64,000 nt of DNA, taken from Noviherbaspirillum saxi. GTDB taxonomy: Bacteria; Pseudomonadota; Gammaproteobacteria; Burkholderiales; Burkholderiaceae_D. A model generated the notes under the pieces. It did not search any database. It was not told the origin of the DNA and saw nothing but the letters and a program-made list of their open reading frames with translations. The DNA is taken from assembly GCF_003591035.1 (NCBI RefSeq), contig NZ_QYUO01000001.1:2356001-2420000 (forward strand). The letters run 5' to 3'. This document shows, piece after piece, positions 26,966 through 30,708 of this stretch (positions are counted from its first letter, which is position 1; the number at the start of each line of letters is the position of its first letter). The translations under genes and the position numbers were made by a program.

Positions 26966-27041
26966 AGGCATCTCGGCCTGAGCAGACGATGAAATTAAAG
27001 CTCTGGCGAAAAGCTTTAGGAAGATATACGGCGGGAGGGAT

Positions 27042-27292: not shown

Positions 27293-27320
27293 GGCGGAGA
27301 GGGGGGATTCGAACCCCCGA
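27293..27320 (-). other. Left attachment site: 3' end of tRNA-Ser (remnant)
   Basis: The last part of a tRNA-Ser gene (ggcggaga, G-run, attcgaacccccga on the plus strand) matches the end of the intact tRNA-Ser at 30619-30647 except for one fewer G in the run (6 versus 7). No anticodon or 5' half is present. This is the usual signature of integration at a tRNA 3' end. Confidence 0.85.
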
Positions 27321-27474
27321 AGTATCGCTACATTTCTAGTATTTGCAAAAATGCTGGCGAAAAGCTGGCATTTCATCATTCCTAATTTTTCTTTTTTCAA
27401 CGAAACGCGTCAGCTCCTTGCTTGAAAGACCGGCATCATTTATAAAGTATAACGTTGTCTTTTTTTCATCATTT

Positions 27475-28149
27475 ATGGATTACAAAGCTTATGCTGCCTT
27501 TCTCCGACAGAAAGTTAGAGACTTTCGCGGAATTGCCGCAGCGACAAACGGTGACCTGGAGGTCGAAGACCTGCACAACGAAGCATGGGTTGTAGCTGAA
27601 TACCATGGGGCTAAACGTGGGATACCAATCGACTGGCTAGACCCTGCGGATCAATCACTTATCTTGGGTACCTTGACGGTCAAATACGATTGGGAAAAGC
27701 GTGCGCAGCGGTCGCAGACAGTCAGCATTGACGCAGCAGGAATTGACGAGGACGGTGAGGCATTCACCCTGTGTGACTTGCTACATTCCGACGTAGCGAT
27801 TGACCCCCTGGATGAACTCGCTCACCGCCAGGAAGTAACCAGTGAGGCAGAACGGGCGAAGCGGGCGGCCGAAGAAAGGATTCTTGAATCGTATTCGCAG
27901 TCCGTGGCCTACAACGTTATTCTGTGGCATTTTGAAAACGTGCGCCGGCGGCTAGCCGGTTATCTCGCAATAGACCGAGGCACGCTGAGGCTCCGAATTG
28001 ACGCTGCGGCCAAACAGCTGAAGGTTCAGCCATCGCTTTTTGATCAAATTGAACGCATTGCGTCGTCATTTCGACCAGCACCAGGAAAGGAATATTGCAA
28101 GCGAATTGAACAGCACCGCGCAGGTAAACAATGGGCTTGGGAGTTCTAA
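27475..28149 (+). CDS. Island protein of unknown function (224 aa)
   Basis: The ATG at 27475 opens MDYKAYAAFLRQKVRDF; the frame is open to 27343 in AT-rich leader sequence. The segment LEVEDLHNEAWVVAEYHG resembles a sigma-70 region 2 signature, and SYSQSVAYNVILWHFENVRRRLAGYLAIDRGTLRLRI could be a helix-turn-helix. These are weak hints, and I would call it a possible DNA-binding or sigma-like island protein only. It lies between the left att site and the integrase remnant. Confidence 0.55.
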   Translation: MDYKAYAAFLRQKVRDFRGIAAATNGDLEVEDLHNEAWVVAEYHGAKRGIPIDWLDPADQSLILGTLTVKYDWEKRAQRSQTVSIDAAGIDEDGEAFTLCDLLHSDVAIDPLDELAHRQEVTSEAERAKRAAEERILESYSQSVAYNVILWHFENVRRRLAGYLAIDRGTLRLRIDAAAKQLKVQPSLFDQIERIASSFRPAPGKEYCKRIEQHRAGKQWAWEF

Positions 28150-28197
28150 TCAGACGAGGCTCTAAGGAATAAAGCAAGTGCAAATGACGAAGGACCG

Positions 28198-28416
28198 AAC
28201 CCCCGGTGTCAAACACGGCACACATTCGCCAGCATGATGCTCGCTGCTGGCGAGTCACCGATGTGGGTTGCACAGCAAATGGGGCACAAGGATTGGACGA
28301 TGATCGCCCGGGTCTATGGGAAGTGGATTAAGGACGCGCAGCCGGAGGCTGGCAATAAGGCCGTTGCAATGTTTGCTGGGTCAAATCAGAGAACGACACC
28401 CCAAGCGACTAATTGA
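28198..28416 (+). pseudogene. Tyrosine recombinase (integrase), C-terminal remnant
   Basis: The frame reads ...TRHTFASMMLAAGESPMWVAQQMGHKDWTMIARVYGKWI, which contains the Box II Arg (RHTFAS), the GHKDW His/Trp box and the nucleophile Tyr (RVYGKW). The N-terminal two thirds of the enzyme are absent: the frame upstream lacks a start and runs into the unknown gene. Only the end of the catalytic domain remains. It shows what drove integration at tRNA-Ser and that it is now inactive. Confidence 0.8.
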
Positions 28417-28993
28417 GTTGTGGCTGAGGAAAAACACCAGCAATGAACCTATTTGCCAAGTCACGCAGACTCAAACGGATGCTTCGCGTATGTGCCTTTT
28501 GGTGAACAAGTTCGCAGATGTCCGCATGCGAGCGATCTGTTTCTAAAGCAGTGTCATATACGCCAAAACCGCGAAGCGGAGCTGGATCAGTTTCAAATTG
28601 AACGGTAATTTGGCGAACATCAGCGCAAAGAAATTGGATTGTACCAAGGTACAGACGCTCCTTTTCGGGATTACCCTGATTGTGTCTAAATACTCTATTC
28701 TCACCGAGTTCTTCGATATATTCCTGTGACGCATGGGCTAGCCTATTCACAGACATACCGAAACTTGAAGCATCGGAAAACGCCGCCGCAGTAAGAGAGT
28801 TTGTCTCCGGGTCGTAGTGAACTGGACTCACAATTTGACGGCACAAGATTTCATTGTCCTGCACTGGACCAGGCGAGTGCGCGGACGCAGATTCACCTTC
28901 CCACCCAACTAGCTGTTCTTGGGAAAGTTTTTGCAGATCCTTGCATTTTTGTTTATTGCCGGAATTTTGAGAAAAAAACTCGATGCAATCCAT
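28409..28993 (-). CDS. Three-gene island operon, gene 3: unknown (194 aa)
   Basis: Last gene of the operon, 12 bp after its neighbour. The middle has EILCRQIVSPVHYDPETNSL followed by TAAAFSDASSFGMSVNRLAHAS. This layout (an Arg-Ile entry, then an S/A-AF..., then a SV motif) recalls a broad class of unassigned cargo proteins, but I cannot name it. No membrane helix or nuclease motif is seen. It overlaps the integrase remnant by 8 bp on the opposite strand. Confidence 0.65.
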   Translation of the reverse strand: MDCIEFFSQNSGNKQKCKDLQKLSQEQLVGWEGESASAHSPGPVQDNEILCRQIVSPVHYDPETNSLTAAAFSDASSFGMSVNRLAHASQEYIEELGENRVFRHNQGNPEKERLYLGTIQFLCADVRQITVQFETDPAPLRGFGVYDTALETDRSHADICELVHQKAHTRSIRLSLRDLANRFIAGVFPQPQLN

Positions 28994-29005
28994 CGACTAT
29001 TGCAC

Positions 29006-29584
29006 CTACGCGGCTAGAGCGTACCCATGCGGAATGAGTAGGTCGCCCAAGGTATCGAAATACCAATTCGAATTAATACTTGTTGTATCAATTGAATCGT
29101 AAAACTTCTCTTTTCCGGTCGAACGAATTTTGGAATATATAGATATCTTTCCTTCAGGTTCGAAGGCAATATCGATATATATGTCGTTATCGTCCCAGTA
29201 GAGGCCTAGTTCTCCACTTGCTGAAAGCATCGCCTTTGGCAAAGGAAGCACTGGCGGCATTGAAAGTACAAAATCCAAAGCCGCCTCAATATCTTGGCTT
29301 GCAGGAACAACGCTATCAGCACCGTCCCATCCCGGCTCTAACTTTGCGAATGAAGACAACTGCGACAAGACATCCCCTGTCGCCACTACATAGGTATTTG
29401 AGGTTTCAATTGCACTGAGTGGCGGCTCATAAGTCGCTTCAGGTGCAGCTGTATCAAAGTACATTTGAGTAAGAGACGTATCAATGCCTGCAGCTTTAGA
29501 CTTTTTCCCTGCACCCCAATTAGGTAAAGCAGTCGCAGGCAAAGCCAATGAGGCAAGCAACGCGATTGTCGAAAGTGGTTCCAT
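29006..29584 (-). CDS. Three-gene island operon, gene 2: unknown (192 aa)
   Basis: aaggg lies 8 bases before the ATG. The N-terminus is hydrophobic (MEPLSTIALLASLALPATAL) and could be a signal or short anchor. The body has SFAKLEPGWDGADS, then DIEAALDFVLSMP and SGELGLYWDD. This WDG-helix-beta order recalls small cargo proteins often found beside proteins like gene 3; that is an impression and not a search result. Function unknown. Confidence 0.65.
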   Translation of the reverse strand: MEPLSTIALLASLALPATALPNWGAGKKSKAAGIDTSLTQMYFDTAAPEATYEPPLSAIETSNTYVVATGDVLSQLSSFAKLEPGWDGADSVVPASQDIEAALDFVLSMPPVLPLPKAMLSASGELGLYWDDNDIYIDIAFEPEGKISIYSKIRSTGKEKFYDSIDTTSINSNWYFDTLGDLLIPHGYALAA

Positions 29585-29593
29585 TGTTATCCC

Positions 29594-30424
29594 TTAATTT
29601 TGGGTATCAGCTTGGTTCTTCAGCTTAATTTTTTCGCATACTTCTTCGGATAAAAGTTGTCCGAGAACCAGTTTATTTTCTTGGTGAAGTATGTTTTGAT
29701 ACTTTTCAATCGATTGCAGATAGTCTTTTGTCGCTATTCGCAATGGACTGTTTAGCGTCAGCTTGTGTGAGGTCAAAATTTGAATAGCCCGATCGTCTTG
29801 ATTATTGACGACACTGACATTTATATTGTCCAAACACGTACCATCTACTCCTTCCAAATCACGTATGAAGCCATGATGACAGTGCCACAAGCCCTTCTGC
29901 TCGAAACTATTAGGAGCAAGGTAGGGAGTGTCGGTTTTAAATACTTCACGCAGATTGAGATTGGCCGGTTCGTCCTTCCAGGTAAACATATCGTTATACT
30001 GTAAGGCAATAGAACCGATCGATTTCTCCCTAAGGATCGGAGGCAAAACAATCTTGTAGTATCGCATCACGGCTTCTAGAATTGCGTCCCAACGACTGTA
30101 CTCATTAATAGCAATGAGACAATTATTTCGAGAAACAACCATTTGGCTTGCAACTTGGCCAAATTTCCCCATACGTTGGAAAACAACTCCACCCATCGCA
30201 TCGCCGTTTTGCTGAATAGCAGGAGAACCACTTGTAGCTTGGTCAAGATTGACCATAACCACTTTTTGCACCGTGCTTATCGGAAAATGGGACTTTAAGC
30301 TTTGTCCAAGACTTTGGACTTCTTGCAAAGCTCTGTCAGAAATTTCGCCCTGCCATTCCAAGACAAATATCACGCTCTGAATTGCGTGTGACTCAGTAAT
30401 GGGAAATAAGTAATCCAAGCTCAT
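29594..30424 (-). CDS. Three-gene island operon, gene 1: TIGR04255-like protein (about 276 aa)
   Basis: First gene of the operon; its stop lies 9 bp before gene 2. The body has AIQSVIFVLEWQGEISDRAL, then VVFQRMGKFGQVASQMVVSRNNCLIAINEYSRWDAI, then LPPILREKSIGSIALQYND, and ends in an ENKLVLGQLLSEEV helix. This order fits my memory of the sporadically distributed TIGR04255 family (FEW-like strand, Y..W block, LrYiN-like strand, C-terminal helix). The family has no assigned function. ATG at 30424; GTG at 30430 is also possible. Confidence 0.6.
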   Translation of the reverse strand: MSLDYLFPITESHAIQSVIFVLEWQGEISDRALQEVQSLGQSLKSHFPISTVQKVVMVNLDQATSGSPAIQQNGDAMGGVVFQRMGKFGQVASQMVVSRNNCLIAINEYSRWDAILEAVMRYYKIVLPPILREKSIGSIALQYNDMFTWKDEPANLNLREVFKTDTPYLAPNSFEQKGLWHCHHGFIRDLEGVDGTCLDNINVSVVNNQDDRAIQILTSHKLTLNSPLRIATKDYLQSIEKYQNILHQENKLVLGQLLSEEVCEKIKLKNQADTQN

Positions 30425-30570
30425 AAGCACAACTATAGCATTTCGTTATTTTTATGCCTAACAATGCTGGCTGATTGATCTCAACGAGCGTCTAGGACTC
30501 TAAAAGGCTGGCGAAAAAGCTGTCATTCCAAAGCCCATTTCAACTCATTCAGCCCCACAAACACTAGACG

Positions 30571-30610
30571 AAAAAAATGCGTAAGTCTTTTTAATCAAGG
30601 ACTTACGCAT
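30571..30610 (-). terminator. Intrinsic terminator of tRNA-Ser
   Basis: A stem of 11 bp, atgcgtaagtc / gacttacgcat, with a 12-nt loop; on the minus strand it is followed by a T-run. It lies 8 bp beyond the tRNA 3' end, and was probably brought in with the island's copy of the tRNA end. Confidence 0.8.
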
Positions 30611-30617
30611 TGCTTCT

Positions 30618-30708
30618 TGGCGGAGAGGGGGGGATTCGAACCCCCGATAGGCTATTAACCTATACACGCTTTCCAGGCGTGCGACTTAAACCACTCATCC
30701 ACCTCTCC
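30618..30708 (-). tRNA. tRNA-Ser (anticodon GGA)
   Basis: Minus-strand gene: acceptor ggagagg pairs with cctctcc, anticodon GGA in cctggaaag, a long class II variable arm, T-arm gggttcgaatccc and an encoded CCA at 30618-30620. This is the intact tRNA-Ser at the island boundary; its 3' end is the right attachment copy. Confidence 0.95.

Follow-up and report, generated by a model that had tools for sequence, protein, structure and literature searches.

The closest described counterparts of the three-gene operon considered here, which lies on a small island at a tRNA-Ser gene of Noviherbaspirillum saxi within a 64,000-nucleotide stretch of DNA (hereafter the window), are three-part toxin-antitoxin systems. 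In CmdTAC, CmdT is reported to be an ADP-ribosyltransferase and the chaperone CmdC to sense the phage capsid, such that newly made capsid protein draws off CmdC, the antitoxin is degraded and the ADP-ribosyltransferase is freed (PMC11618068). A second study describes chaperone addiction as transferable to other toxin pairs (PMC5105189). As we read it, the N. saxi operon shares with CmdTAC and other toxin-antitoxin-chaperone (TAC) systems a toxin, an antitoxin and a third partner that stabilizes or senses, but it is without a recognized SecB-like protein, and its TIGR04255 protein comes first and its proposed toxin last. The omega-epsilon-zeta and paaR-paaA-parE systems also comprise three genes, in the order regulator, antitoxin, toxin. 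The likeness to them is one of gene order, and it extends to a plasmid on which a zeta toxin lies behind TIGR04255; TIGR04255 proteins differ, however, in being mostly acidic and about 250 aa long.

We think it fairly probable that the operon encodes a toxin-antitoxin-like module of three parts, probably anti-phage, and that a small mobile island carries it, with a toxin of the ADP-ribosyltransferase fold and a TIGR04255 protein as its third component. This reading is favored because the first protein is constant, the cognate pairs behind it are exchangeable and known toxins occur in third place. Its observed basis is the gene order, a near-strict pairing of genes 2 and 3, the exchange of pairs that involves four known toxin families, locations in prophages and next to tRNA genes, and confident structural models of two of the proteins. 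The genes are close-set on the minus strand (276, 192 and 194 codons, with gaps of 9 and 12 bp), as the original prediction had described them:

29594-30424, minus strand: gene 1, TIGR04255 protein of 276 aa, the shared first component (ATG start; NCBIfam)
29006-29584, minus strand: gene 2, proposed antitoxin of 192 aa (part match to PDC-M32A; pairing with gene 3)
28409-28993, minus strand: gene 3, proposed toxin of 194 aa with an ADP-ribosyltransferase-like fold (predicted structure)

That the three genes act as a unit, as originally suggested, is borne out by their recurrence in the same order. A profile scan of genome contigs with gene 3 returned four genome loci (from Methylobacter, two Paraburkholderia and a Rhodospirillaceae metagenome-assembled genome), all four with genes 1, 2 and 3 in this order, which is found again in locus L007 and in a prophage-like contig, L078. 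Homologues of the three proteins share contigs, those of length 3488 and 5005 appearing in all three protein searches and one of 2423795 in two. A tRNA-Arg gene lies no more than 1.2 kb from the trio in two of the four genome loci (L003 and L005). In the viral contig L078 the trio sits between a gene for an S24-type repressor and genes for a DUF2303 protein and a deoxynucleotide monophosphate kinase, a position in which prophages usually carry their accessory genes.

Gene 1, for which an alternative GTG start is possible 6 nt upstream of the ATG, scores 37.3 bits against the NCBIfam model TIGR04255 (cut-off 30; model positions 4-247 of 252), and the family resemblance noted earlier is thereby confirmed above a curated cut-off. 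It is a divergent member, since six-frame genome searches with the TIGR04255 model did not list it (0 matches in its own genome, G000). For the same reason, the 27 of 274 and 29 of 398 genomes found to carry TIGR04255 in two samples, taken from the window's class and phylum, are undercounts. Sixty TIGR04255 loci were fetched and 59 read, L040 being dropped for stop codons in gene 1; places without a fetched locus numbered 7 of 37 in the first sample and 1 of 31 in the second, the last of which was read later as L158. The downstream genes were classified with profiles built stepwise from the window's families and representative downstream genes, and hand placement was used for gene 2 of L017, L030 and L061 and for the L030 PIN gene.

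A downstream partner was present in 58 of the 59 loci, usually in a three-gene operon headed by TIGR04255. The commonest pair was that of the window, a gene 2 domain followed by a member of the gene 3 family (23 loci), and one further locus (L041) has gene 3 with a merely marginal gene 2 match. In 13 loci a helix-turn-helix (HTH) gene precedes a "long SCD" gene; the others have an HTH gene alone at a contig end in L062, an SCD gene alone in L043, a "short SCD" gene in eight (among them L039, which has no visible gene 2), a papain-like pair in four and a HEPN-like gene in two; L066 carries an unclassified pair and L054 nothing clear. In the HTH class the second gene has a helix-turn-helix region, seen as weak Pfam matches that stay under the cut-off, and SCD, papain-like and HEPN-like are our own labels, based on motifs seen by eye. 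The remaining four loci were missed by all class profiles, and each has a known toxin: PIN in L022 and L030 (the latter also VapC-like by TIGR00028, below the cut-off of that model), YhaV in L028 and PemK/MazF in L051. On a Vibrio parahaemolyticus plasmid (L077:158-2105, a 12-kb record), TIGR04255 is followed first by a hypothetical gene and then by one for a zeta toxin (Pfam, 3.1e-12).

The classes were defined on the 59 loci themselves, and the independent test consists solely of 21 further loci from outside the window's class, within the classes touched by the phylum sample, that were read with unchanged profiles and with the known toxins added as single queries. A partner was recognized in 20 of these: 13 complete trios of the window's type, three HTH/long SCD pairs, one each of the papain-like, HEPN-like and SCD kinds, and L173, which has the gene 2 domain without a gene 3 match. 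Nothing was recognized in L174, whose gene 1 is a fragment.

Judged by these sequences, genes 2 and 3 vary in concert. The gene 2 domain was accompanied by gene 3 in 23 of 23 loci of the first sample and 13 of 14 of the second, and the two families form the paired small operon that broadly characterizes type II toxin-antitoxin systems. When the cargo was mapped onto a gene 1 tree comprising 65 proteins, 13 changes sufficed as against a mean of 32 for shuffled labels (as low in 0 of 200 shuffles), and thus cargo is inherited with gene 1. Cargo is also swapped, in that one well-supported clade of 12 mixes short SCD, PIN, PemK, HEPN-like and other genes, with single placements unsure because end branches are often long and the tree was quickly made. 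Because the pairs change together, and because PIN, YhaV, PemK/MazF and zeta occupy the third place elsewhere, the likeliest assignment is antitoxin for gene 2 and toxin for gene 3. The original prediction had raised a defence or toxin-antitoxin cassette as a common content of such islands, and the operon survey favors that reading. Its description of genes 2 and 3 as small cargo proteins undersold them, for they behave as a cognate pair and gene 3 is probably a toxin of the ADP-ribosyltransferase fold.

The enzymatic side of this assignment comes from a predicted structure. Gene 3 matched no family in four profile libraries and had no close relative in the plasmid collection, and neither gene 2 nor gene 3 (the latter also with a broader alignment) gave a convincing relative of known structure by sequence. 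The AlphaFold model of gene 3 is confident (predicted local distance difference test score, pLDDT, of 95), and its four best structural matches are proteins of the ADP-ribosyltransferase fold, with modest Z scores of at most 5.6 (VIA-align 2, with which all fold comparisons of genes 1 and 3 were made). The top match is the RNA 2'-phosphotransferase Tpt1/KptA, over chain residues 80/86-180. In the Clostridium enzyme, the nicotinamide adenine dinucleotide (NAD) lobe spans residues 86-182 of its own numbering (PMC6333775), and the region aligned with gene 3 would correspond to that lobe. Gene 3 may therefore have ADP-ribosyltransferase activity.

The same kind of pair occurs with a different upstream domain in PDC-M32, a candidate phage-defence system of PADLOC that one paper lists as a PADLOC hit in prophages (PMC12429752). 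Gene 2 matches PADLOC PDC-M32A only at positions 249-348 of 375 (E 1.8e-5), and its domain is the one in the C-terminal part of that protein. Gene 3 has no match to the PDC-M32B model up to E 1, and the two are homologous by iterated profile only; the window's genes are thus PDC-M32 members neither by the full-length A model nor by the B model. The PDC-M32B model was found at eight places in 7 of 396 genomes, with the gene 2 domain directly upstream in all eight and no TIGR04255 in the stretches fetched around them, some of whose contigs end nearby. PDC-M32 is therefore like the window's pair in that its B protein belongs to the gene 3 family and the gene 2 domain forms the end of its A protein, whose N-terminal domain, however, is another one. 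The idea that PDC-M32A is a TIGR04255 fusion was rejected on the single case examined, the A protein of L008, which fails the TIGR04255 profile. A type I restriction specificity (HsdS) gene lies downstream of the pair in L150, L151, L155 and L156, separated from it in L155 by a RhuM-family gene; these four places were checked, the remaining four of the eight being left out of the count. One kind of pair is thus found behind either of two upstream domains, and at some of its places defence genes lie alongside.

These places bear on an alternative in which the operon encodes an infection-activated effector complex, with gene 2 as scaffold or co-effector and gene 3 activated by gene 1 rather than released. 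The joining of the same pair to another N-terminal domain, its position beside type I restriction genes at four of eight places and the finding that gene 2 matches none of the known antitoxin families in Pfam or NCBIfam all fit such a complex. We nevertheless regard it as unlikely, given that the third place elsewhere is taken by classical PIN, YhaV, PemK and zeta toxins, which are antitoxin-dependent. A neighborhood comparison points in the same direction as the prophage setting of L078: PADLOC families at E 1e-10 numbered 297 in ten TIGR04255 stretches (150 open reading frames, ORFs) and 79 in ten controls (143 ORFs), a hint only, because the models are redundant, the stretches were chosen by hand among long contigs, and defence genes (Wadjet, GajB-like) occurred in the controls too.

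What might the constant first protein do? A TAC system would call for a chaperone of the SecB family by sequence, and gene 1 is not recognizably one. A Pfam search with gene 1 (up to E 1) and a search among 48 of its relatives (up to E 0.1) gave no SecB match. SecB homology was rejected in an hhalign comparison of 65 TIGR04255 with 30 SecB sequences (probability 0.1), and comparisons of half against half and of halves against SecB were also empty. Sequence searches, a broader alignment included, gave no convincing gene 1 relative of known structure, and no close relative was found in the phage collection. The AlphaFold model (pLDDT 93.3) does not have SecB among the 50 structural matches listed, and a SecB-like fold is still conceivable.

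One possibility is that TIGR04255 is a transcriptional repressor of the module without a sensing role, like omega or PaaR. The regulator-antitoxin-toxin order agrees with this, also in the operon of TIGR04255, hypothetical gene and zeta, and the nucleic-acid binders TBP and RepDE are among the structural matches of gene 1. Those matches score at about background level, however, most gene 1 proteins are acidic (median pI 5.66; 52 of 65 below 7 and 8 above 8.5; net charge of -6 for the window's protein), and in the HTH class gene 2 itself already supplies a helix-turn-helix region, so we consider a repressor improbable. By analogy with CmdTAC, we propose that TIGR04255 takes the part of CmdC, holding the antitoxin and releasing it on infection; the transferable addiction described for TAC fits the exchange of pairs behind TIGR04255. 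The chances seem to us evenly balanced that TIGR04255 is in general an unrecognized sensor or antitoxin holder, not recognizably SecB, which serves five or more toxins unrelated to one another (PIN, YhaV, PemK, zeta and the new ADP-ribosyltransferase-like family) plus several uncharacterized ones, and that it defines a large new class of anti-phage three-part toxin-antitoxin systems, with PDC-M32 as a sister that uses another sensor domain.

In the toxin-antitoxin-like module as we envisage it, gene 3 would be a toxic enzyme of the ADP-ribosyltransferase fold, gene 2 its antitoxin, and gene 1 would bind and stabilize the antitoxin and relay the trigger. Capture or diversion of gene 1, for example by a phage protein, would cause the antitoxin to fail, the toxin would act and growth of the infected cell would stop. 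It is possible that the contact with TIGR04255 is made by the N-terminus of gene 2, which is hydrophobic and, in the family alignment, conserved within the window's subfamily. Two observations weigh against parts of this scheme: the hydrophobic N-terminus is absent from most of the class to which gene 2 belongs, which speaks against the contact, and the exceptions L173 and L039 in a recount of the pairing slightly lowered our confidence.

The same N-terminus could instead indicate that gene 2 is exported and that the trio has a stress or envelope function unconnected to toxins or phage. Its conservation in the subfamily is compatible with export, yet the window's protein lacks a positive residue ahead of the hydrophobic stretch, most of the class is without the stretch and toxin swapping would go unexplained, which makes this explanation very improbable. 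The idea that gene 2 proteins bear a hydrophobic addiction tag throughout was also considered and rejected as not general across operon classes. With the hydrophobicity of the N-terminal 80 residues measured against the rest of gene 2, a peak of at least 1.6 in those 80 residues was found in 7/30, 7/14, 0/4 and 9/15 proteins by class (controls by the same peak criterion, 7/65 for gene 1 and 9/61 for gene 3), and 1, 3, 0 and 3, respectively, exceeded shuffles at 0.05.

Two other sets of third genes recur behind TIGR04255. The SCD genes (L020, L053 and kin) form two recurrent families with a Ser/Thr-Cys-Asp motif discerned by eye, and one scanned member of each gave no convincing Pfam match; both types are predicted to be new toxin families. 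The papain-like third genes of L017, L019, L047, L048 and L159 have HVGI ... GLTCATF motifs, likewise seen by eye, and are paired with a conserved second gene.

The trio resides on a small island that is anchored at a tRNA gene and occurs sporadically, with the following features:

30618-30708, minus strand: tRNA-Ser (GGA), the integration target (ARAGORN)
30619-30647, unstranded: attachment-like repeat of 29 nt at the tRNA 3' end (repeat search)
27293-27320, unstranded: distal copy of the attachment-like repeat, 28 nt (repeat search; single copy in the empty site L111)
27475-28149, plus strand: island ORF of 224 aa, function unassigned (very weak sigma-factor resemblance only, E 0.11)
about 28150-28416, plus strand: tyrosine integrase remnant, C-terminal part (left border set by eye)
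30576-30611, minus strand: inverted repeat just 3' of the tRNA-Ser (15-nt arms, 93%; T run on the minus strand)

ARAGORN and the repeat comparison substantiate the two tRNA-Ser-end repeats enclosing 3.35 kb from which the island was first recognized; the copies differ solely by one G within a G run. The trio is indeed AT-richer than its flanks, by a moderate difference (GC of 42-49% as against mostly 50-62% in 500-base windows). That the island is small, sporadic and tRNA-anchored follows from these repeats, from an empty site in a genome of the same genus (G008, locus L111) and from a gene 3 profile that matched none of 14 other genomes of the genus. The empty site runs from a YihY-family gene through tRNA-Ser and one repeat copy into the right-flank sequence, the island being absent, and the flanks (YihY on its left side, a gene for acetyl-CoA synthetase on its right) were named by eye. 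This comparison rests on G008, since the 13 other fetched stretches of the genus ended before any tRNA-Ser.

The rest of the island had been described as decayed, which holds for the integrase, now a C-terminal scrap (28234-28416 matches phrog_1 at 9.2e-8 and phrog_216 at 0.0013), and fails for the ORF at 27475-28149, which is still open. This ORF ends one stop codon ahead of the integrase remnant and in the same frame; it has a 40% identical relative close to a contig end in another member of the genus (G012) and no match in the plasmid collection. The inverted repeat is presumably the terminator of the tRNA itself. Near-identical 16-nt repeats (94%) at 27348-27363 and 30502-30517, inside both island ends, are possibly arm sites of the integrase, and they may be chance because a weaker copy at 26997 falls outside the island.

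A full-text search of an open-licence literature collection (preprints excluded; an earlier description elsewhere is possible) found no paper that names TIGR04255, and nothing on it appeared in the titles and opening lines of abstracts of open-licence literature on three-part toxin-antitoxins, TAC and related systems included. The exchangeable toxin pairs now give the TIGR04255 family a testable function and suggest a possible role for the PDC-M32 pair of PADLOC. Several new toxin families are predicted as well, namely gene 3 and both SCD types. If the proposed role of TIGR04255 is true, it would represent a second route, not recognizably SecB, to an antitoxin that depends on a sensor, and would be of general interest.

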